42,654 nt of DNA from a bacterium. Lineage in GTDB: Bacteria > CAIWAD01. Below are positions 3,458 through 20,093 of the stretch, in pieces (position 1 is the first letter of the stretch; each line of letters starts with the position of its first letter). The notes under the pieces are model-generated. The model had not been told where the DNA came from. It was given only the letters and a program-made list of their open reading frames with translations, and made no database searches. The position numbers and the translations under genes are program-made. The DNA is taken from NCBI GenBank assembly GCA_030429345.1, contig JAUIFJ010000013.1, positions 77,812 through 120,465 of the forward strand, in the 5' to 3' direction.

Positions 3458-3481
3458 ACGAACAGTGGAAATATTATTGGT

Positions 3482-6400
3482 GTGAAACCCATTGCCAACC
3501 ATAGGCTTTTCCTGGCGTTTCTCATGCTTGCCGGCAGTCTGTCGGCCGCGCCGGTGGACTCCCTCTACAGTCCGCCGCCGCGGGCGTTGAGCGGGAGCCA
3601 GGCGGAGCAGGATCCGGCCTTGTCGCCGGACGGCCGCTACCTGGTCTACAGCCGCGAGGAGCGCGGCAACCGGGATCTCTGGATGCGGCGGGTCGATTCG
3701 GGCGTGCTCGGCGAACTGCCTCAGCGCCTGACCGAGCATGCCGCGCCCGACCTGCGGCCCCGCTGGTCTCCCGATGGGCGCTGGATCTACTTCCTCAGCA
3801 TGCGGGACGACGCCGCCGGCGACATCTGGCGTCTGCGACTGCACAGGCGCTGGGGATCGCTCAAGGCCGGAAAGGCCGAAGCGGTGCTGGTCCGTCCCGG
3901 AGCCCAGGACAATCCCTGTCCGCATGCAGACGGCAGCCTCTACTTCGACGAGACGGGCCCGGAGGGACCGCGCCTGATGGCTTTCGCCGCCGACAGCCTG
4001 CGGCGCATCGCCGAGCCGGCGCGCCTGCCGGTGGCCTGGGGCGACAGCCTGCTCTACCTGGCGCCCCGCGAGGACGGGCTCAGCGGCCTATACTGGTGGC
4101 ATAAAGGGGCGAAGGGCGAACTCTGGTCGCCGCCGGGCGGTGTGCTCGAAATGGCTGCCCTGGGCTCGGAGCGCATCTGGCTCTGCGGCCTGCCCTTCGC
4201 CGAGCAGAACCCCGCCGGCCCGACCCTGGTGCAGCAGGCCCTGCGGCGGGCAACCGAGTACCGCGGCGAAGCCGGCCTGTGGCTGCTCGACTTCCGCCAG
4301 TCGCCGCCGCTCGTCCTCAACCTGCTGCCGCCGGGCCGCGATCCGCGGCAGCTCAGTCTGGCGCAGACAGCCGACGCGGGCCCTCAGCTTGTGCTGACCG
4401 AAGGCCGCGGACGCAGCTCTCTGCGCCTGCAGGCTGCCAGCGGTTCCCTGCGGGATTCCCTTGAGGTGCAGGAGTTTCAGCTGCTGCTTGCGGCAGAAGG
4501 CGAAAGCCCGCGCCGGGAGTGGCTGCTGGAGCGCATGGCCAGCCAGTTCCCGGCTACGGTCGAAGGGGAAGAGGCGGCCCTGGCGGCCCTGAGACTGGCC
4601 ATGCGGCGCCCCCTGCTGCGGGGGGAGGATCTCCTTCATCGCTGTCGGCAGCTGATGCGGGAGCTGAGCCAGGGGGACCTGCGTACGCGCGCCTCCTTGC
4701 TGCTGCAGGTCCTGCGCCTGCGGGAAGAGGCGGATCCTCTTGCAGGGCAGGAGCTTGCCTCCGCGCTGGATGCCGAATGCCTCGCTCTGGCCCGGGCGGG
4801 ACAGACCGGGCCCGCCGCCGAAGGCTGGCTCGAACTGGGGCGCTGGCGGCTCTCGCGCGGCGAAAGGGCGGCCGCCCTGCGCGTCCTGCAGCAGGTCAGC
4901 GAACTCTGCCCCGGCGAGCCGGAGGAAGCGACGGCCTTGCTGCTGCGCCACTGGGCCTACCGGGAGCAGGGCAGCGCGGAAGCCGCCCGCGGCAGTCTGC
5001 GTGAGTTGGCGCAAGGCTTTCCGCAGCAGGCAGACCTGCTGAGTTCCTGGCAGGAAAGCCTTCGTGCTCAACTGGATGCGCTTCCTGCTTCCGTGGCCTT
5101 GGCCCATGTGCGCGACGAGCTGGCCGCGCTGGGAGGAGTGCCTGGAGTCGGCGAGGCCCTGCAGCTTGAACTGGCAAGGGCGGAAGCGCGCCTCCCTGAG
5201 GCCATGGACCTGGCCCTGAGCGACCTGGAGGGCCTGCGCCGCCAGTCGCTGGAAGGGCAGAGCGCCTTCAGCCGGCAGGTGCTGCTGCAGGCCCGCGAGG
5301 CCCGTGCCCGCTGGCTGATGCGCAGCGGCCGCGGCGACGAGGCCCTGCGCGAACTGGCCGGGGAGCTGCAGCTCCTGGGCGAGGCGGGCAGGCCCCTGGA
5401 GACCCTGCGTCTTTCCCTGCTGATGGAGCGCGCCGGGCGGGCCGCCCGTTCCGGCGACGCGGCCCTGGCCCTGGCCGACTACCAGCGCGTGTTGGCTTTG
5501 GACGGCGAAAACGTGGAAGCCCTTCGCGGCCTGGCGGAGGCCGCGGCGGCCGAAGGCCGCATCCTGGAAATAGCCGGCCCCTGGCTGGCGCGCGCCGAAT
5601 CGGACAGCGTGCGGGCCATCGACTACTACGCCGCCGGGCTCTTTCACAGTTGGCGCGCCGCCGAGGATCCGGCGGCCCTGCCCGAGTCCGACCACTGGCT
5701 GGCCCTGGCCCTGGGAGCGGCGCCGGACATGATCCGCGCCTACCAGACCCTGGCCTGGAACCTGGCCGAGGAGCGGAGGCAGATCCTGCAGCGCAAGACG
5801 GGCCTCAAGGGGCTGATCGACGAAGTGGGCCAGGGCAACCGCATCGTGCGCCGCTGGCTGCGCGACGTGCGCCAGATGGATCCCGAAGAGCTGCTCGACC
5901 GCGGCCTGGCCCTGCTGGAGCGGGCCCTGGAACTGGCCGCCGAAGAGGAGCCCGGCCTGCGGCCCGAACTGTTGCGCAACCTGGGCAACCTGCACTTCAC
6001 GCGCGGCGAGTTCGGCGCTCCGGCGGCCCGGGAAGCCTGGGACCGGGCGCTGGCCGAGGGACTCGACTTCCGGAACGAGGCCGATTTACTGGGCTTCCGC
6101 CACAAGCAGGGCCTGGTCCTGCAGTGGCTGGGCGAGGAGCAGGCGGCCCGCGAGGCCCTGCAGGAGGCGGAAAGTCTGGCCGGGCAGTTGGGACGTGGCA
6201 GCGAGCAGCGGGAACTGCTGGCGCGCCTGGGCCTGCTGGAAAGCCAGGCCGGCCGCTTCGCAACGGCTCGCAGCCACTACCAGCGGGCCTTCAGCCTGGA
6301 ACCGGATCCCGGTCAGCAGGGCATCCTGGCGCGCAACCTGGCCTGGTGCTCCCTGGAACTGGGCGACACGGAGCAGGCGCGAAGGGACCTGCGCCAAAGC

Positions 6401-9400
6401 GAGGAGCTGCTGGCCCAGGCCGACTGGCCGCTCCCCGTGCCCTCGAACTGGTTGAGGATCCAGCTTTTCGGCCTGCGCGTTCCGCTCTGGAATTTTCCCG
6501 GCCTGGGCACCGGCGAAGGCAAGCTGACCTGGAAGCCGCGCGACGAGGAGCTGCTGCGGGCTTCCCTGCAGGCGCGCATCGAGGAACGCGAAGGGCGAGG
6601 CGACCGCGCCCTGGCCAGCCTGCACGAGCGCCGCAAGAGCCTGCGCCGCGCCGGGGACAGTGTGGGCCGGGTGCAGCTCGACCTGGCGATTGGCGCCTGG
6701 CTGGCGCGCAGCGGGCAGCTGGAAGAGGCCGCCGAGCGCTTCCAGGTGGCTCGCGAAGAGGCCGCCGACGAGCTGCTCGGCATGGGACTGGAAGGACAGG
6801 CCGCAGTAGCGGAACTCTCGCTTCGCCTGCTGTCGAAAAATCCGGAAATGGATGTCCGGAAATGGGATCGCTATCTGAATCTGATCCAGAAGTTCCGAAG
6901 CCGCATGGCCGAGGGCGAGAGCCTGCCGCGGCGCACGGCGGTGCAGCTGCAGTGCCTGCGGGCGGAGGTCCTGCTCGAGCTGGGAGAGCTCAGCCTGCGC
7001 GATGGCCTGGTCGGGCCGGTGAGCCTCGACTATCGGGCCCAGGCCATGGCCGTGCTTGACAGCCTGGCCGCGGGGCAACTGGCTCCGGCCCTGCCCGCTC
7101 CCTCGGAGCTCGGGCAGATCGACCTGGGCCGGGCGCGGGTGCACCGCCTGCTCGGCGAAAGCAAATCCGCGGATCGCCTGGTCGAGGCCCTGCAGGCCGG
7201 GCCGGCCCCCGCCGTCGAGGAGCAGCTGGCACTGCTGGACCCCGCCGGCCTCGACAGCCTGCGCGCCCGCCTGGCCCGCGAACCGGAACTTTTCCACCAG
7301 CAGGACCCGGCCCGCATCGCCCGCATTCGGGGCGCCCTGCGAAACGGCCTGGATCTGGCCGAGCAGCAAGGGGATCGCGAGCGCTACCGGCAGCTGATGC
7401 ACTGGTGGCGCTGGTGGGAAGGCCGCCGCCCCTGGGGAGACCGCAGCCTGCGTTTGCCCCGCGAAAGCGACACCAACGCCTGGCAGAACCTGCTGGCGGA
7501 CCTGGAAGAGCTTCGACAAGTGCGAGAAGACAGTCGCCGGGCCGAAGCCGACCTGGCGCGCAGGCGCGCCGCGGGCGAGCTGCCGGACAGTTCCGTCGCC
7601 ATCGCCTTGCGGGCCGAGCGTGAGCGGCTGGAGGGCTGGGTGATCCAGGACCGGGAGCTCTTGCGCAAGGGCGAATCCACGCGCACCCTGATCGAGCCCG
7701 GGAATAGACGCCGATCCATTTCCCCGGGAGAGCCCTTGGACCCCCTGTCCATGCTGTATTTCAACAGCGACGCGTTCTGCCCGGTCGCTCTCTTTGATCC
7801 CGCAGAAGTCCCGCCGGCCGCCCACAGGATCTGTCTGCTTTATGGGGATGCCGGGGTCGGCAAGGAACTGGAGGCCAACCGGGTCACAGGAGGAGATTGG
7901 ATCAGCTGGATTGGCGAGGGACATCCGGATCCAAGGCTGCGCGTGTTGGGGCCGGAGGCCATGGGGAGTGCAGATCCCCGTCTCGATGGGCGGGTACTGG
8001 TCCTGGAAGCCACGCTGGAACTGGTCTGCGGGGACCCCGCGAGTTCCTGGTTCGACTTCGGAGAAGGCAGGCGCCTGGATCTGCGCGATCTGCTGCAGCG
8101 GCGCTGGTCCAGCGAAACCCTGGGGATTGCCGGCCTGCGACGGACAGGAGCCTTGTCCGAAGAAGGTCCGGCCTGGATTTTCCTCGAGTCCGTGCTGGCC
8201 AAGGCCGGTTTTCGCCGCTGGTGGTTGCCGGCGGAGAATGTCCGTCTTTCGGGAGAGAGATTCCTTGCCGCCAGTCTGAAAGAGTTGAAAGGAGGAGTCG
8301 ATCGCCCCGGAGACTACGTAGGGCTGGAAAGACCGCCGGATCCGGATCTGCAGTTCACGGAGCTGCAGATCTTCGGTCTTCCGCGGACAACTCCCGAAGA
8401 GCGCCTCGAACAGGGCCGGGCCGGCCTCGAGGAGGTGCTGGGCCTGGCCGTTGCCCAGTACCGTGAAAAGCGCTACGGCCGCGCCTGGGAGCATTTCCGC
8501 CGGGCCATCGACCTGGCGCAGAGATTGGGGGAAACGGCGACCGTCGTGCGGCTGCGCCCCTTGGCGGCGAAGAGCGCCGGCCGTGGAGATGGAGCTTCCG
8601 AACGAAGTCGCCATGCCCTTTCCGCCCTGCTGGAGCGTACGGCGCCTCTGCCCGGCCTGGAGCATGGGGAGGCGGCCTGGCCGCAGGCAGACGCGCCCTA
8701 CCTGGAAGAGCTGCTGCTGCTCGCCGACCGCGCGGGCCGCAGGGAGGTGGCCCGGGCCTGCCTCGCCGCCCTGGAAGAGGCCAACCCGCAAGGCATGAAG
8801 GCCCTGGGCGATCGTCGCGTCTCGCGGCTGAGCCAGGCCGGCGCGGTGCTCCCGGCGGCGGCCCTGGCCGAAGAGCTGGAGCTGATGCCGCAGGGCGAGG
8901 ATCCGCGGCGGGCGCTCTTCCTGGCCAAGACCTACCTGGACGGCGGCAGCCCGGATCTGGCCCTGACCGCCTTCCGCGCGCCCGTTGTCGCCTGGCAGGA
9001 GCTGCAGCCTCCCGCGCTGCTGGACAAGCTGGAGCTGGAAGCTGTCGCCGCCATGCGCCTGGGGCAGCTGTCCCTGGCCCGCCGGGGCCTTGAGCAGGCG
9101 GGAGAGCTGGCCGCCGGCATGCGTCCCGACAGCGCCCGCCAGGCCCTGTCCGGCCTGCGCCGCGCCGACCTGGCCTGGCAGGAAGGCCTGGCCAGCGGCG
9201 CTTTCCGTGAACTGGACGCTGTGCGCTCCCTGCTGCCCGCGAACCGTCCCGAGCTGCGGCTGCTCTGGGAAAACACCTCCGGCCTCGTGCGGCAGAGCCT
9301 GGGCGAGGGACCGGCGGCGCTGGCCCATTTCCGTCGTGCCCTTGCCGAAGCCCAGGGCCTGGGGGATGCGCGGGAAGAGAGCGCCGTGCGCAACAACCTG

Positions 9401-11230
9401 GCGCGCAGCCTGCTCGCGGAAGGGCATAGCGACATGGCCCTGCAGGAACTGCAGCTGGCCCGTGCCGCCGAGCAGCGGGCCGGCCTCTCCGGGGTGGTCA
9501 CGCGGCGCAACCTGGCCGAGGCCTGGCTCTCGCTGCCTGGGCGCGAAGCCCTGCGCCGGGCGCGAGAGCACCTGGACGAGGCGCGACTGCGGGCCGCCAA
9601 GGAGGCTTTGCGCCTGGAAGAGTTGCGCCTTTCGCTGCTGGCAAGCCGCCTGGAACGCCTCTCGGGGAATCCGGAGGCGGCCCGCGGGCATGCCGAATCG
9701 GCCCTGGCCCTGGCGCGGAAACTGGAGTGGCGCGAAGGGCTCTGGAAGAGCCATCTGCAGCTGGGTCTGGCCCTGGAAGAGGCACAGCAGCCCCTGGCCG
9801 CTCGCGAGCAGCTGGACCGCGCGGCCGCCGCCCTGGAAGAGCTGCGCCAGGCGCAGGCCGGCAGCCGCTTCCGCAGCGGCGTGCAAAGTGCCCAGGCAGA
9901 ACTGGTCGAGTCGCGGCTGAGGCTGGCGCTTCAGGCGAGGGAGCCGGAAGAGGCCCTGGTGCTGGCCGATCGCAGCCACGCCGTGGGCTTCGAGGACCTG
10001 CTGGCCTGGCGCGAACGAGGGAAGGAGCAGGATGCGGCCCTGCGCAGCCGCAGCGACAGCCTGCAGCTGGAATTCTCCCTGGCGAGGCAGGCCCTCGAGC
10101 GCGGGCGCGGCGGAAGCCGGAACGAGGAGCAGCGCCTGGCCCGCCTGCGCGCGGAACTGGAAGCCAGCCGTCTGGCCCTGCAAGCCGCGGAGCAAGGGCG
10201 CATGCCTGAACAGCCCGCGCGCACGGCCCCCCTTCTGCCCCGCTTGCGCGCCGCCCTGGGGCCACGCCAGGCCATTGTGTTCTACCAGCTGGGGCCGCGG
10301 GAAGGGCAGCTCTTCTGGCTGCGCGGCGACAGCCTGGGGCATCGCCGCCTGGAACTGGCGCCGGACTCCCTGGCCCGCCTGGCCGAGCGGCACCGCACCC
10401 GGACCCTGCAGCTGCTGAGCACCGAAGGCAGCGCGCGCCAGTTGGCCCAGGTGCTGATCGATCCTCTGCTGGAGCAGCTGGAGGGAGTCGACGAGCTGAT
10501 CCTGGTTCCCCATGGCGCCCTGCATCGCCTGCCCTTCGCCTCCCTGGAGCTCGAGCAGGGCCTGCTGATCGATCGCTTCGCCCTCAGCCAGCAGCCCAGC
10601 CTGGCCTTCTGGCTGCGCAGCCGCGAGCAGCAAGCGGTCGAAGGGCCTGGACGCGCCTGGTGCAACCCTCCTGGGGCGGAGCTGGATTTCGCCGTGCTCG
10701 AGTGCCAGGCGGCCCGCGCCAGCTGGCCCGGCCTGCGCATCCTGCAGGACGATGCGGCCAGCCGCAAGGCCGTTCTCGAGGACAGTGTCGCACGGGCGAT
10801 CCGCCATTTCAGCTGCCATGGCCTGCATGACCCGCAAAGTCCTGCCGCTTCCGGCCTGCTGCTGGGAGAAGGCGAAGAGGTGCGGCTGCTCGACGCGACG
10901 ACCATCAGCGCCCTCGAGCTGCCGACGGAACTGGTGGCCTTGAGCGCCTGTGACACGGGGCTCGGCCGCACCGTCTCAGGCGACGAGGTGGCCGGCCTGC
11001 CCCGCGCCTTTGCCCTGGCCGGTGCGCGCAGCGTCTTCAGCAGCCTCTGGAAAGTCGACGACCTGTCGACCGCGGTGCTGGTCAAGCACTTCTACCGCAA
11101 CCTGGCCGCCGGCCAGTCCCGCGCCGAGGCCCTGCGCCAGGCCCAGCGCACGGTCCGCGACGAACTGAATCCGCACCCTGTCTACTGGGCCGCCTTCACG
11201 CTCTGCGGTGTCACGGATTCAATGCCTTAG
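3482..11230 (+). CDS. Giant exported TolB-propeller/TPR/CHAT-protease protein
   Basis: 2,582 residues from GTG 3482, chosen because a classical signal peptide follows directly (MKPIANHRLFLAFLMLAGSL...AAP). Any start further upstream would lie inside a dispersed repeat. Residues about 40-340 hold TolB-like propeller repeats ('DPALSPDGRYLVYS', 'PRWSPDGRWIYF'). Leu/Ala/Arg-rich helical TPR-type repeats fill about 350-1390 and 1640-2240. The C-terminus (about 2250-2582) is a CHAT domain, the caspase-like peptidase of the HetF/TPR family, with His2446 in 'FSCHG' and Cys2490 in 'LSACDTG', then 'ARSVFSSLWKVDD' and 'YWAAFTLCG'. Residues about 1420-1632 look like a second, degenerate CHAT domain. CHAT proteases are mostly intracellular (family knowledge), so an exported one is unusual. 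Partner and substrate are unknown; it could act as a periplasmic or surface sensor-protease. Confidence 0.93.
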   Translation: MKPIANHRLFLAFLMLAGSLSAAPVDSLYSPPPRALSGSQAEQDPALSPDGRYLVYSREERGNRDLWMRRVDSGVLGELPQRLTEHAAPDLRPRWSPDGRWIYFLSMRDDAAGDIWRLRLHRRWGSLKAGKAEAVLVRPGAQDNPCPHADGSLYFDETGPEGPRLMAFAADSLRRIAEPARLPVAWGDSLLYLAPREDGLSGLYWWHKGAKGELWSPPGGVLEMAALGSERIWLCGLPFAEQNPAGPTLVQQALRRATEYRGEAGLWLLDFRQSPPLVLNLLPPGRDPRQLSLAQTADAGPQLVLTEGRGRSSLRLQAASGSLRDSLEVQEFQLLLAAEGESPRREWLLERMASQFPATVEGEEAALAALRLAMRRPLLRGEDLLHRCRQLMRELSQGDLRTRASLLLQVLRLREEADPLAGQELASALDAECLALARAGQTGPAAEGWLELGRWRLSRGERAAALRVLQQVSELCPGEPEEATALLLRHWAYREQGSAEAARGSLRELAQGFPQQADLLSSWQESLRAQLDALPASVALAHVRDELAALGGVPGVGEALQLELARAEARLPEAMDLALSDLEGLRRQSLEGQSAFSRQVLLQAREARARWLMRSGRGDEALRELAGELQLLGEAGRPLETLRLSLLMERAGRAARSGDAALALADYQRVLALDGENVEALRGLAEAAAAEGRILEIAGPWLARAESDSVRAIDYYAAGLFHSWRAAEDPAALPESDHWLALALGAAPDMIRAYQTLAWNLAEERRQILQRKTGLKGLIDEVGQGNRIVRRWLRDVRQMDPEELLDRGLALLERALELAAEEEPGLRPELLRNLGNLHFTRGEFGAPAAREAWDRALAEGLDFRNEADLLGFRHKQGLVLQWLGEEQAAREALQEAESLAGQLGRGSEQRELLARLGLLESQAGRFATARSHYQRAFSLEPDPGQQGILARNLAWCSLELGDTEQARRDLRQSEELLAQADWPLPVPSNWLRIQLFGLRVPLWNFPGLGTGEGKLTWKPRDEELLRASLQARIEEREGRGDRALASLHERRKSLRRAGDSVGRVQLDLAIGAWLARSGQLEEAAERFQVAREEAADELLGMGLEGQAAVAELSLRLLSKNPEMDVRKWDRYLNLIQKFRSRMAEGESLPRRTAVQLQCLRAEVLLELGELSLRDGLVGPVSLDYRAQAMAVLDSLAAGQLAPALPAPSELGQIDLGRARVHRLLGESKSADRLVEALQAGPAPAVEEQLALLDPAGLDSLRARLAREPELFHQQDPARIARIRGALRNGLDLAEQQGDRERYRQLMHWWRWWEGRRPWGDRSLRLPRESDTNAWQNLLADLEELRQVREDSRRAEADLARRRAAGELPDSSVAIALRAERERLEGWVIQDRELLRKGESTRTLIEPGNRRRSISPGEPLDPLSMLYFNSDAFCPVALFDPAEVPPAAHRICLLYGDAGVGKELEANRVTGGDWISWIGEGHPDPRLRVLGPEAMGSADPRLDGRVLVLEATLELVCGDPASSWFDFGEGRRLDLRDLLQRRWSSETLGIAGLRRTGALSEEGPAWIFLESVLAKAGFRRWWLPAENVRLSGERFLAASLKELKGGVDRPGDYVGLERPPDPDLQFTELQIFGLPRTTPEERLEQGRAGLEEVLGLAVAQYREKRYGRAWEHFRRAIDLAQRLGETATVVRLRPLAAKSAGRGDGASERSRHALSALLERTAPLPGLEHGEAAWPQADAPYLEELLLLADRAGRREVARACLAALEEANPQGMKALGDRRVSRLSQAGAVLPAAALAEELELMPQGEDPRRALFLAKTYLDGGSPDLALTAFRAPVVAWQELQPPALLDKLELEAVAAMRLGQLSLARRGLEQAGELAAGMRPDSARQALSGLRRADLAWQEGLASGAFRELDAVRSLLPANRPELRLLWENTSGLVRQSLGEGPAALAHFRRALAEAQGLGDAREESAVRNNLARSLLAEGHSDMALQELQLARAAEQRAGLSGVVTRRNLAEAWLSLPGREALRRAREHLDEARLRAAKEALRLEELRLSLLASRLERLSGNPEAARGHAESALALARKLEWREGLWKSHLQLGLALEEAQQPLAAREQLDRAAAALEELRQAQAGSRFRSGVQSAQAELVESRLRLALQAREPEEALVLADRSHAVGFEDLLAWRERGKEQDAALRSRSDSLQLEFSLARQALERGRGGSRNEEQRLARLRAELEASRLALQAAEQGRMPEQPARTAPLLPRLRAALGPRQAIVFYQLGPREGQLFWLRGDSLGHRRLELAPDSLARLAERHRTRTLQLLSTEGSARQLAQVLIDPLLEQLEGVDELILVPHGALHRLPFASLELEQGLLIDRFALSQQPSLAFWLRSREQQAVEGPGRAWCNPPGAELDFAVLECQAARASWPGLRILQDDAASRKAVLEDSVARAIRHFSCHGLHDPQSPAASGLLLGEGEEVRLLDATTISALELPTELVALSACDTGLGRTVSGDEVAGLPRAFALAGARSVFSSLWKVDDLSTAVLVKHFYRNLAAGQSRAEALRQAQRTVRDELNPHPVYWAAFTLCGVTDSMP

Positions 11231-11236
11231 AATCAA

Positions 11237-11379
11237 GAGCTCGCACGGAGAGCACGGAGGAAGAACGGAGTACACAGAGAAGACAACGGAAGGCGGGCTG
11301 CCGGAAAGGCAATTCCTTACGAGAGCAACCAGACTCTACTCCGTGCTCTCTGTCTTTTCTGTGTTCTCCGTGCGAGCTC
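11237..11379. repeat. Long imperfect inverted repeat, CACGGAG family
   Basis: The left arm starts GAGCTCGCACGGAGAGCACGG (about 11237). The right arm ends TTCTCCGTGCGAGCTC (11379). The arms are purine-rich and pyrimidine-rich imperfect complements about 45 bp long, with a spacer of about 50 bp. The structure ends 27 bp before the ATP-grasp start codon at 11407, so it lies in the leader and could form a cruciform or RNA hairpin. The left arm is repeated at 16816, after the end of the same gene block. Confidence 0.8.
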
Positions 11380-11406
11380 CTCTTCTTCGGATCAAAAGGA
11401 GAACAC

Positions 11407-12264
11407 ATGCCCACGCCGATTGCTTTTCTGTCGATGGAGGACACGAAGGACTTCGTGATCTATGACCACCTGGCTGTGCCGGCGCTGGAGCGGGCGGGCT
11501 TCGAGGTCGAGACGGTGCCCTGGACGGTCGAGAGGGACTGGAGCCGCTACGCGGCCGTCGTGATCCGCAGCCCCTGGGACTACATGAACCAGTCGGAGCG
11601 CTTCCTGCAGGTGCTCGAGGAGATCGATCGTCACACGCAGCTGCTCAACGGCTTCGCGACCGTGCGCTGGAACATCGACAAGGGCTACCTGGCCGAGCTG
11701 GGGGGCAAGGGACTGCCTGTGGTCGAGACCACCCTGGGACGCGGCGGCGGTCCGGGGGAGCAGGCGCTGTGGCGCAATGTGAGCCGCGACCGGCCCTGCG
11801 TGCTCAAGCCGCGCATCGGCGCCGGGGGCTTCGACACCTATGTATTGCGCGACGGATCCTTTCCCCGCGAGGCGGGAAAGGCCTTTGTCGACCGCGACTG
11901 GCTGCTGCAGCCGTTCCTGGACGCCGTGCAGGAGGACGGGGAGTATTCCCTCTTCTTTTTCGGCGGCGTATACAGCCACGCCGTGCGCAAGGTCCCGCGC
12001 AAGGGCGAATTCCGCAGCCAGGAGGAATACGGCAGCGCCCTTTCCGCTGTCACACCGCGGGCCGACATGCTGGATGCGGCGAAGCAGGTCCTGGACGCCT
12101 TGCCGGAGGCGGTTTTCCAGGCCCGCGTCGACCTGGTTCGTGCCGCCGATGACCGCCCCCTGCTGATGGAGCTGGAACTGATCGAACCCTCGCTCTACTT
12201 CCCCTACGACGAGACCTCGCCCGGGAACTTCGCCCGGGCCTTGAAGAGATGGTTGGGGGTGTAG
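11407..12264 (+). CDS. ATP-grasp ligase, DcsG/RimK-like
   Basis: 285 residues, cytoplasmic, with no signal peptide. The ATG follows AAAAGGAG with a 6-base gap. The N-terminal half has 'RSPWDYMNQSERFLQVLEEI' and 'VRWNIDKGYLAELGGKGLPV', which match my memory of DcsG-type ATP-grasp proteins (O-ureido-serine cyclo-ligase of cycloserine synthesis and relatives). The ATP-binding lysine lies in 'CVLKPRIGAGGFDTYVL'. The metal-binding acidic segment is 'LLMELELIEPSLYF' near the C-terminus. Enzymes of this fold join a carboxylate to an amine or thiol with ATP. The substrate cannot be read from sequence. A second ATP-grasp gene, a PqqD-like gene and a PLP enzyme lie downstream, so it probably works in the same pathway, but repeats and a 455 bp gap separate it from them and it may have its own transcript. 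Confidence 0.87.
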   Translation: MPTPIAFLSMEDTKDFVIYDHLAVPALERAGFEVETVPWTVERDWSRYAAVVIRSPWDYMNQSERFLQVLEEIDRHTQLLNGFATVRWNIDKGYLAELGGKGLPVVETTLGRGGGPGEQALWRNVSRDRPCVLKPRIGAGGFDTYVLRDGSFPREAGKAFVDRDWLLQPFLDAVQEDGEYSLFFFGGVYSHAVRKVPRKGEFRSQEEYGSALSAVTPRADMLDAAKQVLDALPEAVFQARVDLVRAADDRPLLMELELIEPSLYFPYDETSPGNFARALKRWLGV

Positions 12265-12267
12265 GAT

Positions 12268-12573
12268 TGCAGGTGAAACCTGCAGGTTTTATTGGTCGGC
12301 CGTTGCACGGCCGGTGGATCGAAAGAGGCGGCATGCGGACTGTTCCAATCAATCAGCCCTGCAAGGGCTGACCAAAAAGAGCTGCAGGTGCAACCTGCAG
12401 ATTCTGGTTATTGGTCGGCCGTTGCACGGCCGTTGAATTGAAAGTGGCGGCGTGCCGTCCGATTTAAATGAATCAGCCCTGCAAGGGCTGACCAAAAGAG
12501 CTGCAGGTGCAACCTGCAGATTCTGTGATGGTGCAACCTGCAGATTCTGTGAGGGTGTCCACTGCAGATTCGG
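12268..12573. repeat. Triple-palindrome repeat, two full units and a partial third
   Basis: Units start at about 12268, 12383 and 12501. Each full unit of 115-119 bp contains three short palindromes in fixed order: CTGCAGGTGCAACCTGCAG (weaker in unit 1), GGCCGTTGCACGGCC and CAGCCCTGCAAGGGCTG. The third unit stops after the first palindrome and becomes a short array of about 24 bp steps (TGCAACCTGCAGATTCTGTG). All the palindromes have TGCA-type centres. The array fills the region between the ATP-grasp gene and the barrel gene. The remaining 12574-12718 shows no further structure beyond GC-rich direct words. Confidence 0.85.
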
Positions 12574-12718
12574 AGTTCGATTTCCTTGCCGTGCAATATT
12601 CGGCAAGTCGTTCCGTTTCAGCATCACGACAGCGGATCTCCCGAAGGGGAGTTCCGCGGGCGGGGAGCCGATAAACGGACGCGGGAGCGTCCGGCGAGCC
12701 TTCAACGATCGCGTCTAC

Positions 12719-13582
12719 ATGAAACCACTCTTAGGCCAGCTGGCCGCCTTGATCCTGCTGATGGCTGTAACCAGCCCGGCGTGTGCCGCGCTCACCCAGG
12801 GAACCTACACCTGGTGGAGCCTGCTGGCCGGCGCCGAACTGAACCAGGCCCTCGACAACGACCCCTATTCCTTCCAGGATGCGGAAACGCGCACGGCAAG
12901 CCTGTACCTGTCGGGCGGCAAGGGAGCGCGCTGGGGGATCCTCGCTTTCAACGACATGCGCCTCAGCCAGGACTGGTGGACCTTCCGCGGCCGGCGCGGC
13001 ATGCTGCGGCTGCGCGAGGAAAGCGCGACGGGGCTGGCCCGCGGCCTGTGGGCCTTCTACAGCCAGGGCAGCCAGGACTGGGAGGGTCGCGGCCTGGGGC
13101 TGGAACTGGATGCGCCGCCCCTGGGCGCCTTCCGCAATGGCTTCGAACTGTCCTGGACCCGGCACGCCTGGCTCAACGAACAGGGCGTCCTGCCCGTGCA
13201 GGAGGACCAGCAGTCGGTGCGAGTCGGATTGTTCCTGACCCGGCAGACGGAGAAAAGCCGCCTTCGCCTGGCCGGATTCCGGCAGACCCTGGACGGGAAG
13301 ACCGAAAGCGCCTGGCAGCTGCGGGCCGGTCGGCGCTTCGGCCGCACCGGGATCACGGCGACATTGTTCCACGGACGACAGAGCCTGTGGCTCGATGCCG
13401 AAAGCCTGGTGCTGCACGACGGCAGCAGCCCGCTGGAAGGAGCGGCCTCCCTGTCCCTGCAGCGGCCCCTCAGCGGCAGTCTCACCCTGAGGCTGGGCGC
13501 GGGCTGGACCGGCTCGATGGATCACGAGAATCGCTGGCTCTTCCTGGGACTTGCCTGGAAGACGGCCTACTGGACTTTGTAG
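12719..13582 (+). CDS. Predicted outer-membrane beta-barrel protein
   Basis: 287 residues from ATG 12719. The frame is open further upstream, but that part runs through palindromic repeats, and a signal peptide starts exactly here (MKPLLGQLAALILLMAVTSP...ACA). The mature part is a run of amphipathic strands with alternating hydrophobic and polar residues and aromatic girdles (WWSLLAG, RLSQDWWTF, RGLWAFYSQ, RLRAG-type ends). It ends 'WLFLGLAWKTAYWTL', with aromatic residues at the terminus as in many BamA-assembled barrels. No strong ribosome binding site is visible. It lies 57 bp upstream of the small exported protein and probably shares its transcript. The specific family was not recognised; a channel or receptor role would be inference. 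Confidence 0.75.
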   Translation: MKPLLGQLAALILLMAVTSPACAALTQGTYTWWSLLAGAELNQALDNDPYSFQDAETRTASLYLSGGKGARWGILAFNDMRLSQDWWTFRGRRGMLRLREESATGLARGLWAFYSQGSQDWEGRGLGLELDAPPLGAFRNGFELSWTRHAWLNEQGVLPVQEDQQSVRVGLFLTRQTEKSRLRLAGFRQTLDGKTESAWQLRAGRRFGRTGITATLFHGRQSLWLDAESLVLHDGSSPLEGAASLSLQRPLSGSLTLRLGAGWTGSMDHENRWLFLGLAWKTAYWTL

Positions 13583-13639
13583 GACAAAAGACCCCATTGG
13601 ATGGCGACGGCCGGTAGCGGCCGGAAAAAGGAGAACGGG

Positions 13640-14050
13640 ATGAAACGGATCCTAAACGCCCTGGCCCTGCTGCTGTTTTCGCTGCAGGTCCTGCAGGCCC
13701 ACGAACTGAGCCTGCGCATGGAGTTCGAGAAGGGGCAGCCTCATCGCATCGTGATCCAGGCCGACCTGGAGGCGGAGGCCTGGCTGGGACTGTCCTGGTA
13801 CCCTTATGGTGTCACAGACGCCTATGCCGAGGGCGAGCACCAGGTGATCCGCCTGTCGCCAGGCGAGAACGAGCAGATCTTCCGCGTGCCCGCGCGCATG
13901 CTCGGCGGTTCCGTCGAGTGCGCGCTCTGGAAGGTGCGTGTTACAAGGGAGGAATGCCCCACCCAGTGCCAGTGGTGCACGGACAACGGCTTCCACCTGG
14001 AAAAGCAGCAGGGCTACCTCTACGGAAGCCTGGCGAAGGAGGCGGAATGA
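13640..14050 (+). CDS. Small exported Cys-rich-tail protein
   Basis: 136 residues from ATG 13640, preceded by AAAAGGAGAACGGG, a strong ribosome binding site that decides this start over one 39 bases upstream. A signal peptide (MKRILNALALLLFSLQVLQA) is followed by a beta-rich domain ('RIVIQADLEAEAWLGLSWYP', 'HQVIRLSPGENEQIFRVPA'). The tail has four cysteines, one in VECALW and three in EECPTQCQWC. The stop overlaps the PqqD-like start (ATGA). I do not recognise the family. Because it is translationally coupled to a peptide-recognition protein and ligases, it could be the substrate they modify or a periplasmic partner. It is larger than a typical RiPP precursor. Confidence 0.82.
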   Translation: MKRILNALALLLFSLQVLQAHELSLRMEFEKGQPHRIVIQADLEAEAWLGLSWYPYGVTDAYAEGEHQVIRLSPGENEQIFRVPARMLGGSVECALWKVRVTREECPTQCQWCTDNGFHLEKQQGYLYGSLAKEAE

Positions 14051-14304
14051 ATCCCCAGAGTCACCTGCAGCTGAGCCCCGAAGGCTTCCTCTTCGACCAC
14101 TACTCGGGCGCCAGCTTCACGCTCAACCGGAGCGGCGTGCGCATTCTCGAGCTGCTCATCGAGGGACTGGATCGCGAGAGCATCCTGCAGCGCCTGGAAA
14201 CCACCTGGCCCGAGGCCGGCCGCGAACGCCTGGCCGGGGACCTGGACGGCTTCCTGGCAAGGCTGGAAAGCCATCGCCTGCTGCGCGCCGGGGAGGCCTC
14301 GTGA
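14047..14304 (+). CDS. PqqD-like peptide-recognition (RRE) protein
   Basis: 85 residues. The pattern is that of PqqD/RRE domains: a short strand region ('GFLFDHYSGASFTLNRSGVR', equivalent to the 'l.d..tG....LN..G..IL' core) followed by helices ('ILELLIEGLDRESILQRLE', 'DLDGFLARLESHRLL'). Such domains bind the leader of a precursor peptide and present it to the modifying enzyme (family knowledge). The start is fixed by a 4-base ATGA overlap with the upstream gene. The stop overlaps the next start as GTGA. Free-standing PqqD-like proteins beside ATP-grasp enzymes suggest ATP-dependent peptide modification, but no classical short precursor gene is obvious next to it. Confidence 0.82.
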   Translation: MNPQSHLQLSPEGFLFDHYSGASFTLNRSGVRILELLIEGLDRESILQRLETTWPEAGRERLAGDLDGFLARLESHRLLRAGEAS

Positions 14305-15416
14305 ACGCGCCCCTGCCCCTGGACTGGAAGCGCGCGGCGATCGCCGTCAGCGGGCTCAACAGCGCCGACAACCCGGCCCCCGGAGTGCCGGTGGCGCGCA
14401 GCCTGCGCGAAGCGGGACACACGGGTCCATTGGTCGGCCTGGCCTACGACAGCCTGGACAGCGGCATCTACCGCGAAGGGCTCTTCGACCATGTATACAT
14501 GATGCCCTTTCCGAGCAGCGGCGCCGAAGCCGTGCTGCAGCGCCTGCTGCGCATCCGCGACGAGACGGGCCTGCAGGCGGTGATGCCGGCCCTGGACAGC
14601 GAAATGGACCTCTACGCCTCGCTGGAGGAGGTGCTGGAACGCGAAGGCATCCGCAGCCACCTGCCCCGCGCCGACAGCCTGGAGCTGCGCAGCAAGGCCC
14701 GCCTGGCGAGCTTCTGCGAGCAGCAGCGGATCCTGGTGCCGCCGACCCGTTCCGTATACGACCTGGCCGGACTGGAGAAGGCCTGGAAGGAGCTGGCGGA
14801 CCCGACGGGCCAGCAGCCCGTATACATCAAGGGCCAGTACTACGAGGCCGAGAAGGCGAGGACGATCGAAGAGGCGCGCGCCTCCTTCCGGTCGATCAGC
14901 CGGCGCTGGGGCCTGCCCATCGTGATGCAGCGCGGCCTGCCGGGACACGAGCTCAACATCTGCTGCCTGGGCGACGGCATGGGCGGCCTGGTGGGAGCGG
15001 TGGCGATGCGCAAGCTGGCCCTGACCGCCAAGGGCAAGGCCTGGGCCGGTGTGACCGTCGGCGAGCCGCTGCTCTACGACTTCGCCCGCCGCGTGATCCA
15101 CGCCTTGCGCTGGCGCGGTCCCTGCGAGCTCGAAGTGCTGCGCCACGAGCACACGGACCAGCTGCACCTGATCGAGATCAATCCCCGCTTTCCCGCCTGG
15201 TGCTCGCTCTGCGCGGGCGCCGGGGTCAACCTTCCCGCGGCCCATGCCTCGCTGGTCCTGGGCCAGGATCCGGGTGACCTGCCCGCCGCGAAGAGCGGCG
15301 TGATCTATACCCGCCTCAGCATCGACCAGGTCTGCGACCTGTCTACGCTGCAGGCCCTGAACACTGCCGGACAGATCCACTTTCCGCCGGCCCAGCCTCA
15401 AGGAGACCCGCGATGA
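14301..15416 (+). CDS. ATP-grasp ligase, carboxylate-amine type
   Basis: 371 residues from GTG 14301, chosen for the GTGA overlap with the PqqD-like stop and a GGGGAGG 7 bases upstream. The N-terminal domain starts 'AAIAVSGLNSADNPAPGVPV' and contains 'VMPALDSEMDLY'. The ATP-grasp core has 'PVYIKGQYYEAEKARTIEEA', 'MQRGLPGHELNICCLGDG' and the metal-binding 'HLIEINPRFPAW', the hallmark of the carbamoyl-phosphate-synthase/biotin-carboxylase-like branch. It probably activates a carboxylate as acyl phosphate and couples it to an amine. The stop overlaps the PLP-enzyme start by 4 bases. It is distinct in sequence type from the ligase at 11407, so the pathway would have two different ATP-dependent ligation steps. 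Confidence 0.88.
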   Translation: MNAPLPLDWKRAAIAVSGLNSADNPAPGVPVARSLREAGHTGPLVGLAYDSLDSGIYREGLFDHVYMMPFPSSGAEAVLQRLLRIRDETGLQAVMPALDSEMDLYASLEEVLEREGIRSHLPRADSLELRSKARLASFCEQQRILVPPTRSVYDLAGLEKAWKELADPTGQQPVYIKGQYYEAEKARTIEEARASFRSISRRWGLPIVMQRGLPGHELNICCLGDGMGGLVGAVAMRKLALTAKGKAWAGVTVGEPLLYDFARRVIHALRWRGPCELEVLRHEHTDQLHLIEINPRFPAWCSLCAGAGVNLPAAHASLVLGQDPGDLPAAKSGVIYTRLSIDQVCDLSTLQALNTAGQIHFPPAQPQGDPR

Positions 15417-16813
15417 GCGCCGAGCCCTACGAGACCCCGACCATTGTGAGACAACAGGCCGGCAGCAGCAATGTCTTCGGCAGCACGCCGAAGGAGAGCT
15501 TTCGCGCCCACGTGGCCGGCCTGCCCGTCGAGGAGCTGGTCGAGCGCTTCGGCAGCCCGCTCTTCGTGCTCTCCGAATCCGCGATCCGCGAGAAGGTGCG
15601 CGAGTTCCGCATGGCCTTCGAGTCGCGTTATCCCCGCGTGCACCTGGGCTGGTCCTACAAGACGCACTACCTGGCCGCCGTCTGCCAGGTGATGCACCAG
15701 GAAGGCAGCTGGGCCGAAGTGGTCAGCGGCCTGGAGTTCCGCCTGGCGCGGCAGCTCGGCGTGCCCGCGGACCGCATCGTGATCAACGGGCCGGACAAGG
15801 ACGAGCAGACCCTGCGCGCGGCCATTGCCGGCGGCTCGAGAATCCACATCGACAACCAGGAAGAGATCGCAAGACTGGAGCAGCTGGCCCGCGAGGCAGG
15901 CTTCGGCGGCGGCAAGCGCTTTCCCGTCGCGATCCGCGTCAACATGCAGCTCGACGCCCAGCACTGGGACCGCTTCGGCTTCAACCTGGAAAGCGGCCGG
16001 GCCCACCAGGTGGCGCGTCGTGTACACGAAAGCGACAGCCTCTGCCTCAAGGGCCTGCACTGCCACATCGGCACCTATGTAGACAATGTGGACATGTACC
16101 GCCGCGCGGCGGCCCGCCTGGTCGAATTCGCCGTCTGGATCCGCAAGGAGCTGGGCACCGGCCTGGACTGGTGGGACATGGGAGGCGGCTTTGCCACGCG
16201 CAACACGCTGCACTGGGCCTACCAGAACGCGGACGTGACCTGTCCCGGGCTCAACCGCTATGCCGAAGCGATCTGCGGCGAACTGCGCCAGCTGCCGCTG
16301 GAGAACGGGGAAGAGCTGCCCGAGCTCTTCTTCGAGTCCGGTCGCGCGCTGGTGGACGAATGCCAGGACGCCATCGTCACGGTGGTCAGCGAGCGCCGGC
16401 TGGGCAGCGGGGAGCGGGCCCTGGTGCTCAACGCGGGAGTCAACCTGCTGTCGAGCACCACCTGGTACCGCTACGAGGTCGCGCCCGCCCGTGATCCGGG
16501 AGCGACGGTGCTCGAGCAGACCACCCTGCTGGGCAATCTCTGCATGCAGATCGATGTCCTGCGCAGGGAAGTTCCCCTGCCCCCGCTGGTACGCGGCGAT
16601 CATCTGGTGATCCGCAATGTGGGCGCCTACAACCTGAGCCAGAGCACTCAGTTCATTCATGGCCGTCCGGCCGTGGTGCTGGTCGACGGCCAGGGGCAGC
16701 CGCATGTGGTACGCGAAGCCGAGGACGTGGAGGCCTTCCGCGGCCAGGACCGCCTGCCGCAGCACCTGCTCAGCGATGCCGGAAGTGATGCGGTGGAACG
16801 GTTCCGGGAATAG
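15413..16813 (+). CDS. Fold-III PLP enzyme, diaminopimelate/ornithine decarboxylase-like
   Basis: 466 residues. The PLP-binding lysine is Lys83 in 'GWSYKTHY'. Next come His218 in 'LHCHIGTY' and the glycine loop 'DMGGGFAT', which holds the PLP phosphate. The substrate-side motifs are 'FFESGRALV', Cys377 and Asp381 in 'GNLCMQIDVL', and 'GAYNLSQSTQF'. All are the standard landmarks of LysA-type decarboxylases, so it is probably catalytically competent. Normal LysA is about 420 residues; this one carries a 40-residue N-terminal extension. Its place at the end of an overlapping PqqD/ATP-grasp operon argues against housekeeping lysine synthesis and for a special amino acid, or for decarboxylation of a ligated product (inference). 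Confidence 0.9.
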   Translation: MSAEPYETPTIVRQQAGSSNVFGSTPKESFRAHVAGLPVEELVERFGSPLFVLSESAIREKVREFRMAFESRYPRVHLGWSYKTHYLAAVCQVMHQEGSWAEVVSGLEFRLARQLGVPADRIVINGPDKDEQTLRAAIAGGSRIHIDNQEEIARLEQLAREAGFGGGKRFPVAIRVNMQLDAQHWDRFGFNLESGRAHQVARRVHESDSLCLKGLHCHIGTYVDNVDMYRRAAARLVEFAVWIRKELGTGLDWWDMGGGFATRNTLHWAYQNADVTCPGLNRYAEAICGELRQLPLENGEELPELFFESGRALVDECQDAIVTVVSERRLGSGERALVLNAGVNLLSSTTWYRYEVAPARDPGATVLEQTTLLGNLCMQIDVLRREVPLPPLVRGDHLVIRNVGAYNLSQSTQFIHGRPAVVLVDGQGQPHVVREAEDVEAFRGQDRLPQHLLSDAGSDAVERFRE

Positions 16814-16815
16814 AA

Positions 16816-16863
16816 GAGCTCGCACGGAGGGCACGGAGGAAGAAGAGAGAGCACGGAGAGAAG
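16816..16863. repeat. CACGGAG-family repeat, single arm
   Basis: GAGCTCGCACGGAGGGCACG and the following GAGGAAGAAGAGAGAGCACGGAGAG closely match the left arm of the inverted repeat at 11237. It begins 3 bases after the PLP-enzyme stop. The pyrimidine-rich partner arm is absent. Together with the copy at 11237 it brackets the ATP-grasp block in direct orientation. Confidence 0.78.
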
Positions 16864-16945: not shown

Positions 16946-19144
16946 GTGATCCAGAAAAGCGTGGACCGCCTGCTGACGGCGGCGGGAGTGGTGCTCTTCA
17001 CGGGGAGCCGGGGAAGCGGGATTCTTTTCCTGCTGGCCTTGCTGCTGGATCCCTGGCGCCTGGGCCTCGCGCTGGCCGGCGCCGTCTGCGGCATGGGAGT
17101 CGGCGCGCTGATGGCCCGCGAAAGGGTCTGGCAGGAGATCGGCTTTTTCGGCGGATCGGGCATGCTCAGCGCCCTGGCGCTGGCTGCCTACCTGGAACCG
17201 GCGCCCCAGCTGCTGCTGCTGGCTCCGCTGACAGCAGCCCTCTCGGCCCTGATCCTGCTGGCACTGGTTCCCCTGCTGGCGCCGAAGGACCTGCCCTTGC
17301 TGGCCCTGCCCTTCGTGCTCGCCGCCCTGCTGGCCCTGGGGGCCGCGCCGGCCTTCGGGCTGGAGCAGAGCCATCTGCACGGTGCGCGTTTCTGGCTGCT
17401 GCCGCAGCTGGGCGAGTTCAACACCTGGATGTCACACAGCCTGCCCCTGCCCTTCGCCGATGGCCTGTCCGCCTTCGGCAGCCTGCTTTTCTTTCCCGCG
17501 CCTCTCGCCGGCCTGCTGGTGCTGGGCGGTCTCATCATCGGAAGCCGGATCACGGCCCTGGCGATGCTTGCCGGCAGCCTGCTGAGCACGGGCCTGCTGC
17601 GCCTGCTGGTGGACGGCCCGATGAACGCCCAGCAGACCAGCCTGCTGGCTTTCAATGGCCTGCTGCTGGCCGCGGCCTTCTGCGGGATCTTCGTTGCCCT
17701 GACCCGGCAGGCGCTTGTCTACGGGGTCGCGGCCCTGCTGAGCGGCATCCTGGTGACGGCGACCCTGGATCACTTGCTGACTCCTTTCGGCCTGCCCGTG
17801 CTCGCCCTGCCTTTCTGCCTGGTGACGCTGGGCTTCCTGTTGCCGCTGAAGAGCGCCAGCGCGGCCCTGGAACGATGGAGAATCTGGGCGCCGCCCCTGC
17901 GGCTGATCGGCCGGGCCGAGGACAACCTGCGCGCCTTCGGCCGCTGGCAGCGGCAGCAGGATCGCCCGGAGCCCGTGCTGACCATGCCCCTGCACGGCAC
18001 CTGGACCGTGACACAGGGACCGCATGGGCCCTTGACGCACAACACGGAAACCGGCCGCCACGCCTGGGACTTCATGCTGCTCGACACGGCGGGACGCGGC
18101 GCGGGCGGACTGGGCAACACGCCGGAGGACTTCTTCGGTTTCGGCTGCCCGGTGCTCGCTCCGGCGGAAGGCCAGGTGATTGCCGTGGAGGGGCAACACG
18201 CCGACAATCCGGTGCACACGGCGAACACGGACCACCCCTGGGGCAACTGGATGATGATCCGCCACGCCTCCGGAACGGTCAGCCTGCTGGCGCACCTGCG
18301 CGCCGGCAGCCTGCGCGCGCTGCCGGGCCAGCATGTGCTCCGCGGGCAGGAAGTGGCCCAGCTGGGCAACACGGGCCGCAGCCCGGAGCCGCACCTGCAC
18401 CTGCAGCTCAACGACGGGCCCTGGCTGGCCTCGCACAGCCTGCCGGCGGTCTACGGCAGCTGGCTCTCGCTGAAGGATCCCGCCGCGCCCGTCTTCCATC
18501 CGGTGGGCCGTCCGCAGGAAGGCGATCGCGTCTGCACCCTGACGCACATGCACTGGCCCGACTGGAGCGCCTGCCACCCCTATTCGGTGCCCGGTCGCGT
18601 TTTCCGCTACCGGCGGGAAGGGCGCGGCGCGGCCCGCGAGATCGAGCTGCGTGTCACGGCGGGCCACTGGGGCCGCCTGCTGCTGGACGACGGCCTGCAG
18701 CGGGCCCTGGTGCTCTACTGGCCGGGCTGGATCCAGCTGCTGCCGCTGGAGGACGGGGACCCGGACGCCTGTGTGCTCTACGCCGAGGACAGCCTGGTCC
18801 AGCAGCTGCTGCTGCACCTGCCGGCCCTGCCGCTGATCGGGGTCGACGGCCTGCGCGTCGTCGACGATGTATACAGCCCCGGCCTGGCCGGGCGCGTCAA
18901 GAAGGCCTTCCGCCTGGAGGGGCGCGCCTCGCTGGCTCTCGCATTCCGCCGCAAGGAGGCAGCGGCACCCTTGTATTTCAACAGCCGGCTTTCCGCCGAT
19001 GGAACACAAGTGCGTTTCGCGGAAGGACGGATGGAAGACCTGAAAGGCCTCTGCCTCTTCCAGACCGGAGAAGACCGCAAAGGACTTCGCTGGACCCTGC
19101 TGGAGGACCAGGCTGCATTTCATTCAAGGTCGCTGGCGACCTAA
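16946..19144 (+). CDS. Urea-transporter-like membrane domain fused to M23 peptidase
   Basis: 732 residues from GTG 16946; an ATG two bases earlier runs straight into a stop. Residues 1 to about 320 form some 10 hydrophobic helices with urea-transporter signatures: 'LLAFNGLLLAAAFCGIF' (FNG-L), 'GLPVLALPFCLVTLGF' (the L-P-T/A-LPF word), and a matching first-half 'LLVLGGLIIGSRITALAML'. After a linker, residues about 365-500 are an M23/LytM metallopeptidase: His372 and Asp375 in 'GRHAWDF', His450 in 'SLLAHL', and 'PHLHLQL' with His483 and His485. The first zinc motif is H-x2-D rather than the usual H-x3-D. A further 230 residues of strands follow. The peptidase would face the periplasm or outside and could act on peptidoglycan. 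A weak solute-channel role for the membrane part is inference. Confidence 0.87.
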   Translation: MIQKSVDRLLTAAGVVLFTGSRGSGILFLLALLLDPWRLGLALAGAVCGMGVGALMARERVWQEIGFFGGSGMLSALALAAYLEPAPQLLLLAPLTAALSALILLALVPLLAPKDLPLLALPFVLAALLALGAAPAFGLEQSHLHGARFWLLPQLGEFNTWMSHSLPLPFADGLSAFGSLLFFPAPLAGLLVLGGLIIGSRITALAMLAGSLLSTGLLRLLVDGPMNAQQTSLLAFNGLLLAAAFCGIFVALTRQALVYGVAALLSGILVTATLDHLLTPFGLPVLALPFCLVTLGFLLPLKSASAALERWRIWAPPLRLIGRAEDNLRAFGRWQRQQDRPEPVLTMPLHGTWTVTQGPHGPLTHNTETGRHAWDFMLLDTAGRGAGGLGNTPEDFFGFGCPVLAPAEGQVIAVEGQHADNPVHTANTDHPWGNWMMIRHASGTVSLLAHLRAGSLRALPGQHVLRGQEVAQLGNTGRSPEPHLHLQLNDGPWLASHSLPAVYGSWLSLKDPAAPVFHPVGRPQEGDRVCTLTHMHWPDWSACHPYSVPGRVFRYRREGRGAAREIELRVTAGHWGRLLLDDGLQRALVLYWPGWIQLLPLEDGDPDACVLYAEDSLVQQLLLHLPALPLIGVDGLRVVDDVYSPGLAGRVKKAFRLEGRASLALAFRRKEAAAPLYFNSRLSADGTQVRFAEGRMEDLKGLCLFQTGEDRKGLRWTLLEDQAAFHSRSLAT

Positions 19145-19157
19145 GCAGGAGAATCAG

Positions 19158-20093
19158 ATGGTACCGAGGATCATCATCGCGCTGCTCTTCAGCGCAGGGT
19201 TTGCTGTGGCGCAGGTCAACCTGCGCTGGACCGTCGACCAGGGCAGCACCGAAACGGGCTGGCTCTGGGAAGACCTCAACGGGGATGGCCTGGCCGAGCT
19301 GATCAAGGAGGACGGCCTGGGAACGTCCTTCCTCGACGGGGACAACGACTATGCCAGCCTGTGGACAGTCGTCGATCCGGAGCCGGAGGACGACAGCTGG
19401 TTCTCCCTGGCCCATCGCGAGGGCAGCCTGGTGGTCTTCACGCGCGTCAATTCGACCAGCCAGACCAGCCAGATTCTCGTCTACAATCTGTACGGCAGCC
19501 AGCCGCTCTGGACCTCGACGACCCTGGCGGGCGTGCTCTACCGGGTCAGCCTGGGGGAGTTCAGCGGCAGCGGGAACACGGAAGTCGCCGCCGCCTGGAA
19601 CCGCCTCGACACGGTCTACCTGAGCGCCTTCGGCAGCTGGCGTCTTTCCAATGGAGCTGTCACACACGCCCCCGTGGAGGCCATCGGCTACCTGGCGGGT
19701 CCCTGGGGCGGAGCGGTGGAGAATGCATCGGAGGACCTGCTCTTCTGCAACCGCTACCTCTCCGACGGCAGCGCGATCCTCGAGTGCTACGGCCCGGCCA
19801 ACAGCGCCGTCGGCGATCCGGGCCCCGCGCGACCGGAGCGGATGGAACTCGCGGTGCGGCCGAACCCTTTCAACCCGAGCTGCCGCATTCGTCTCACGGC
19901 CGTGCCGCGGACGCCGATCAGCGTACGCGTACACGATCTGCGCGGCGCCCTGCGCAGGCAGTGGCAGCTGCCGGCAGGATACAGCGGAGAACTTCTCTGG
20001 GACGGGCGCGACCAGCAGGGCCGCGCCCTGGCCAGCGGCGTCTACGTGGTCGACATTCCAGGCGGACAGCAGCTGGTCACGCTAAGGAAATAG
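19158..20093 (+). CDS. Exported protein with T9SS type A sorting domain
   Basis: 311 residues. AGGAGAATCAG precedes ATG 19158. A signal peptide (MVPRIIIALLFSAGFAVAQ) is followed by a propeller-like segment with FG-GAP-type words ('LWEDLNGDGLAELIKED', 'EFSGSGNTEVAAAW') that may bind calcium. The C-terminal 80 residues are a sorting domain: 'VRPNPFNPSCRIRL', 'VHDLRGALRRQW', 'ALASGVYVVDIPGG', ending 'LVTLRK'. It should be exported across both membranes and anchored or released. It starts 13 bases after the transporter-peptidase fusion and probably shares its transcript. No enzyme motif was seen. The 276 bases after the stop hold no gene that I can support. Confidence 0.82.
   Translation: MVPRIIIALLFSAGFAVAQVNLRWTVDQGSTETGWLWEDLNGDGLAELIKEDGLGTSFLDGDNDYASLWTVVDPEPEDDSWFSLAHREGSLVVFTRVNSTSQTSQILVYNLYGSQPLWTSTTLAGVLYRVSLGEFSGSGNTEVAAAWNRLDTVYLSAFGSWRLSNGAVTHAPVEAIGYLAGPWGGAVENASEDLLFCNRYLSDGSAILECYGPANSAVGDPGPARPERMELAVRPNPFNPSCRIRLTAVPRTPISVRVHDLRGALRRQWQLPAGYSGELLWDGRDQQGRALASGVYVVDIPGGQQLVTLRK

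Follow-up and report, generated by a model that had tools for sequence, protein, structure and literature searches.

We identified a conserved operon in a 42,654-nucleotide stretch of bacterial DNA (the window; contig JAUIFJ010000013.1 of assembly GCA_030429345.1), in which consecutive forward-strand genes encode an 85-amino-acid PqqD-like protein with the predicted fold of a RiPP (ribosomally synthesized and post-translationally modified peptide) recognition element (RRE; 14047..14304), an ATP-grasp ligase (14301..15416), a fold-III (alanine-racemase fold) pyridoxal phosphate (PLP) decarboxylase (15413..16813), and a urea transporter (UT) channel domain fused to an M23 metallopeptidase domain (UT::M23; 16946..19144). 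On balance, and at somewhat better than even chances, we regard this as a conserved trans-envelope biosynthetic operon, in which the RRE docks the decarboxylase to the ligase and the product is moved via membrane parts.

Conservation of the Operon across Bacteria

All genes described at 11407–16813 are intact, as judged from the open reading frame (ORF) list and a check of the sequence. The original prediction had described a set of genes at 13640–16813 joined by four-base overlaps, which the ORFs and the sequence bear out (14047–14050, ATGA; 14301–14304, GTGA; 15413–15416, ATGA); its PqqD, ATP-grasp, and fold-III PLP assignments likewise agree with matches to PF05402, PF15632, and PF02784 plus PF00278. 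The PqqD-like, ATP-grasp, and PLP genes are translationally coupled (14047–16813). While the coupling of the four genes stands, the extent given for the block does not; the operon continues past 16813, and both the UT::M23 fusion gene that comes next and the tetratricopeptide repeat (TPR)/outer-membrane parts had been missed.

Genome contigs were searched with a six-sequence ATP-grasp alignment, for which orthologues were taken from three same-family genomes and two distant genomes (51% and 41% identity); a single-sequence scan gave no matches. The alignment search found at least 521 ligase relatives, the best 80 of which span at least 10 phyla (Cloacimonadota, Myxococcota, Ignavibacteria/Chlorobi, Bacteroidota, Planctomycetota, Gemmatimonadota, Acidobacteriota, Calditrichota, Neomarinimicrobiota, Gammaproteobacteria, and others). 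Of 290 genomes sampled, usually a single one from each family, 16 have the ligase, indicating a patchy but broad distribution. In a set of 93 loci, from which duplicates had been removed, the order PqqD–ATP-grasp–PLP was found on one strand in 87, and all four genes, including a downstream UT domain, in 77; the most frequent junction spacing across loci is the exact −4 overlap. Only one locus without UT (L013) had ample room for it, the remaining ones lying at or near a contig or locus end; two loci (L020 and L051) had room but no linked PqqD gene, which was found elsewhere in the genome (77 and 97 bits). The gene order is thus conserved beyond chance in many phyla and is not confined to the source genome, a point the original prediction had left to be checked. 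Periplasmic TPR proteins and TPR-barrel or barrel proteins are frequent neighbors, often downstream. No RRE-PLP or RRE-ligase fusions were found among the ORFs of the loci. No anti-phage defense match was obtained with PADLOC, and a reading as a defense system was dropped for that reason.

Variant arrangements were also seen. L156, from genome G144, carries a variant operon (4967–9935 of that locus) with two tandem ATP-grasp genes, a UT without M23, and a PLP enzyme that keeps the N-terminal motif YEKPTI and has lost NKFG. L166, from genome G300, is split, with an exported Cys protein, the RRE, and an exported repeat protein encoded on one contig and the ligase, PLP, and UT genes on another.

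The PqqD-like Protein and the N-terminal Tail of the PLP Enzyme

The PqqD-like protein matches PF05402 above the gathering score (E = 1.2e-9), and its predicted structure is a β3-α3 model (pLDDT 87.7; all structure predictions were of single chains) whose top Foldseek hits, TbiB1 and lasso B1, were each solved in complex with a leader peptide. Model and structure search thus agree with the RRE-like call of the original prediction, and the predicted fold is that of an RRE, closest to lasso RREs. A further comparison is with TIGR04353, the PqqD family of the HPr-rel-A system, for which the score of 34.9 bits falls just short of the cut-off of 35; in both systems the PqqD-like protein occurs without a radical SAM enzyme, but no HprK-related kinase was recognized among the recurrent neighbors here.

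Discrete RREs are known from experiments to bind the ligand motif [Y/W]xxPx[L/V/I/F/A] (PMC13381572; PMC12710340), and the residues of LppB, an RRE of the linear polyphosphorylated peptides (LPPs), that bind a YxxP leader are N33, D70, F74, M78, and L83 (PMC13381572). By spacing, and but for a one-residue insertion that only the window's copy has, these match N27, D65, F69, L73, and L78 of the PqqD-like protein in the window. Among 81 sequences, the leader-contact positions are occupied by Asn in 79, Asp in 78, an aromatic residue in 78, Leu at the first leucine position in 76, and Leu at the last in 58.

A candidate ligand for this surface is found at the N-terminus of the PLP enzyme (residues 6–23, YETPTIVRQQAGSSNVFG; 15428..15481), where all 81 homologues have [YW]xxPx[ILVM] within a tail of consensus YERPxIVRHxxGxMNKFG. 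Ten further loci also have the tail motif, one of them (in G144) without NKFG. Mean pairwise identity is 52.9% in the tail, 51.5% in the folded domain, and 25.9% in the linker; the tail is predicted to be unstructured (pLDDT 46–63 vs. ~92 overall). A tail that is conserved yet unstructured looks like a docking peptide, and it closely resembles the LPP leader consensus, YxxPxVLxHQxIxFETxxS (PMC13381572; PMC12710340). Among the other ORFs in the loci, no convincing instance of the tail motif was found (two weak pattern matches), and when 15 genomes were searched with the tail, nothing but the PLP enzyme of the operon matched significantly. From these sequence comparisons, the partner that bears the RRE ligand motif would be the tail of the PLP enzyme, which the original prediction had not noted. 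The RRE fold and a YxxPx[LIV] ligand motif are common to this system, the TbiB1/FusB1 lasso RREs, and LppB; in those systems, however, the motif is on the precursor peptide, while here it is on an enzyme, and no lasso cyclase, leader protease, or kinase was seen among the recurrent neighbors.

Behind the leader-like motif lies another conserved block, GxMNKFG, and the tail could itself be the precursor of a ribosomal peptide, with a RiPP core fused to the enzyme; the RRE would present the tail, the ATP-grasp enzyme would modify NKFG, and M23 would cut it. This would fit the finding that no separate precursor with the leader motif was found in the loci or in the 15 genomes, as well as the single case of G144, in which M23 is missing from the UT protein and NKFG from the tail, YEKPTI being kept. 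We nonetheless consider a fused precursor unlikely; the lysine of NKFG is replaced by Val in the window's enzyme and by Gly in that of L047, G144 retains the ligase and decarboxylase despite the loss of NKFG, and the yield would be poor at one tail per enzyme molecule.

Precursors are the usual clients of RREs (PMC12710340), and the RRE could instead carry an unlinked precursor with another motif, the PLP tail being a leader mimic or second ligand; in some lineages, the cargo might be the exported Cys protein (encoded at 13640..14050 in the window), which in G300 adjoins the RRE gene, away from the ligase and PLP genes. This protein, in which no YxxP leader motif was seen, has homologues in only ~12 of the loci, sometimes duplicated, and no other widely conserved gene adjoins the RRE; an unlinked cargo therefore seems improbable to us. 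The original prediction had taken the exported protein as substrate or carrier, a role that its distribution does not support in general; it is an accessory of some lineages. In two Planctomycetota loci (L028 and L051), an exported Cys protein with repeated domains within one protein is encoded upstream of the ligase.

Identity of the Decarboxylase

The PLP enzyme matches PF02784 and PF00278 (E = 1e-31 and 7e-10, respectively), and K83 (the PLP lysine) and C377 (the catalytic cysteine) are present in 65 of 65 sequences; R311 is also invariant. It is not the housekeeping diaminopimelate decarboxylase LysA, in line with the original prediction. It scores 210.7 bits against a cut-off of 297.9 for the curated LysA profile and separates from LysA with 100/100 support in the tree; the LysA motifs CE[ST]xD and RPxxY, both present in the true LysA proteins of host genomes, are absent from the family (65 sequences), which has CM[NQA]ID and no Arg. 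A separate true LysA above the cut-off was found in 8 of 10 host genomes tested. Score, tree, substrate motifs, and the separate LysA in most tested hosts thus rule out LysA identity or replacement. In four near-complete genomes (G001, G002, G003, and G011), the PLP enzyme of the operon was the only LysA-family protein found, and these bacteria may be auxotrophic for lysine or make it in some other way.

These results also bear on a role in peptidoglycan or cell-wall metabolism, in which a LysA-like decarboxylase, an M23 endopeptidase, and the ligase would recycle or edit stem peptides. Alanine-racemase-fold PLP enzymes include LysA, known M23 enzymes such as ShyA, DipM, and lysostaphin cut peptidoglycan, and the host phyla named above are mostly double-membrane bacteria; however, the operon's enzyme lacks the CESxD and RPxxY substrate motifs of LysA, most tested hosts have a separate true LysA, and the UT channel and the RRE would be left without a role, making this explanation quite unlikely.

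The nearest known relatives by sequence, tree, and fold are the N-citrylornithine decarboxylases FslC/FigC, although the branch is long; the score for the curated FslC/FigC profile is 220.8 bits vs. a cut-off of 500, and FslC/FigC is also the nearest solved structure (30% identity, target TM 0.90). In the FigA/FigC pathway, a ligase forms an amino-acid amide, which an alanine-racemase-fold PLP enzyme then decarboxylates; docking placed His357 and Arg387 of FigC in contact with citrate (PMC7857480). At these positions, 65 of 65 sequences of the PLP family have Ile380 and Gln410, suggesting, from residue comparison, that the enzyme probably acts on an amino acid joined by an amide to a neutral partner. 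CMQxD/CMNxD and the catalytic Lys and Tyr are shared with the FslA/FslC (FigA/FigC) rhizoferrin pathway, which differs in using an NRPS-independent siderophore (NIS) ligase rather than an ATP-grasp ligase; the RRE, the tail, and UT::M23 are additional here. A rhizoferrin-type siderophore or metal-carrier pathway, made up of a ligase, an amide decarboxylase, and export and uptake parts, would agree with this kinship in sequence and fold and with the barrel adjoining the operon. We hold it to be highly doubtful, since FigC His357 and Arg387 are replaced by invariant Ile and Gln and no NIS synthetase or TonB-dependent receptor was recognized among the recurrent neighbors.

A second precedent is butirosin biosynthesis, where BtrI, BtrJ, and BtrK combine an ATP-grasp enzyme with an alanine-racemase-fold PLP decarboxylase whose substrate is an amino acid carried on a small protein. 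BtrJ is an ATP-grasp enzyme, and BtrJ and BtrK carry out ligation followed by decarboxylation; BtrK is annotated as L-glutamyl-[BtrI acyl-carrier protein] decarboxylase. BtrK is more distant from the PLP enzyme than FslC is, and the small protein of the butirosin system is an acyl carrier protein, whereas the RRE here has no phosphopantetheine site; no acyl carrier protein was recognized among the recurrent neighbors.

Ligase and Membrane Components

The ligase, which is CarB/PylC/ATPgrasp_Ter-like, matches PF15632 (ATPgrasp_Ter) above the gathering score (E = 3.8e-10) and has a conserved EINPR motif and ATP-binding lysines; the NPRF motif with E292, K132, and K177 is invariant in the six sequences. 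The downstream fusion protein matches PF03253 (urea transporter, E = 4e-44) and PF01551 (M23, E = 2e-14). Its UT channel domain (~16964–17845) is complete and matches dvUT-type structures (215 bits), and its M23 domain (~18143–18412) is related to ShyA, DipM, and lysostaphin, with the Zn ligands and catalytic His (H365, D375, H450, H483, and H485) at 98–100% in 70 homologues. It differs from urea transporters (PF03253) in the fused M23 peptidase, and no urease genes were recognized nearby. Together with the TPR and barrel proteins, UT::M23 points to passage through the envelope.

Proposed Pathway and Its Significance

In the pathway that we propose, the discrete PqqD-like RRE would bind the YxxPxI tail of the PLP decarboxylase in the cytosol and thereby bring the decarboxylase and the ATP-grasp ligase together. 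At the expense of ATP, the ligase would form an amide bond between an amino acid and an acceptor; the α-carboxyl group of the amino acid so attached would then be stripped off by the FslC-like decarboxylase, whose acceptor-side pocket would be neutral, with Ile380 and Gln410 where FigC has the His and Arg that bind citrate. The M23 domain may process the product, which would cross the inner membrane by way of the UT channel, with the TPR protein and barrel taking it on through the periplasm and outer membrane. What the analysis establishes is the conservation of the operon, the predicted RRE fold, the tail motif, the distinction from LysA, and the conservation of active-site residues; docking is suggested by sequence and predicted fold, the chemistry by analogy with the enzyme families, and transport by gene content. 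ATP-dependent ligation followed by decarboxylation had also been put forward in the original prediction and would fit the logic of the relatives FslC/FigC and BtrK. The interpretation given there was sound in part, with regard to recurrence, the RRE, the separation from LysA, and this ligase-decarboxylase logic, but not in placing two ATP-grasp enzymes in the system or in taking the Cys protein as substrate.

Several observations weigh against the proposed pathway. The tail in the window has Val in place of the near-invariant Lys (NVFG), and the nearest solved relatives of the ligase are CarB-like. Where UT structures are known, both termini lie in the cytosol, which would place M23 there as well. 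Finally, co-variation between tail and PqqD did not exceed that of control stretches (partial r 0.16; 13 of 66 controls higher). Co-variation between tail and ATP-grasp exceeded all 66 controls, barely (0.365 vs. 0.358); because the former is unspecific and the latter margin slight, neither was used as evidence.

We see roughly even odds that the operon represents RRE-guided biosynthesis of a new class: the leader would be permanently built into a folded enzyme, the RRE would act as an adaptor for assembly of ligase and decarboxylase, and a widely distributed metabolite would be made across the envelope. Each part of the operon has precedents; there is a substantial chance that the system deserves a class of its own. 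A description of the operon was not found in the open-licence literature by component names, and no curated family above its cut-off names the system; since no known product, library name, or paper was found, the operon probably makes a metabolite that nobody has described. RREs are the standard marker in mining for ribosomal peptides. A widespread RRE with an enzyme-borne ligand motif, if confirmed, would mean that the assembly of multi-enzyme pathways is another function of RREs, and would account for some of the PqqD-like genes that lack a precursor.

Neighboring Genes and Repeats

Upstream of the operon, a predicted outer-membrane barrel of 287 amino acids (12719..13582, on the forward strand, as are the exported Cys, FlgD-Ig, and DcsG-like genes described next) was recognized from the character of its sequence and its conserved position, which is kept in the three same-family genomes; similar barrels are encoded downstream of the operon in Ignavibacteria and L014. 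The exported Cys protein follows, with a signal peptide read from the sequence and the motif CxxxCxWCxxxGYHLE; neither protein has a Pfam match. Downstream of UT::M23, an exported protein with a FlgD-Ig/sorting tail (19158..20093) is also accessory, with homologues adjoining the operon in 21 loci.

The first ATP-grasp gene (11407..12264) is related to DcsG, scoring far under the cut-off of NF058666 (181 vs. 360 bits), and has no match in the three same-family genomes. As it is not conserved with the operon, we judged this neighbor to be outside the system, contrary to the two-ligase arrangement first suggested. It is separated from the following gene by ~450 bp of repeats, including, at 12260–12550, repeated 32- and 48-nt units with a CTGCAGGTgcAACCTGCAG stem-loop, several of which score as terminator-like on either strand. 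An ORF of 2613 amino acids at 3389–11230 looks, by eye only, like a β-propeller at its start, followed by a long TPR stretch and, at the C-terminus, a CHAT-type protease domain (HFSCHG ... SACDTG). A 46-nt AAGAGCTCGCACGGAG repeat lies on both sides of the block (11235–11280 and 16814–16859), with an inverted copy at 11346–11383, and looks like a dispersed repeat of the source genome.

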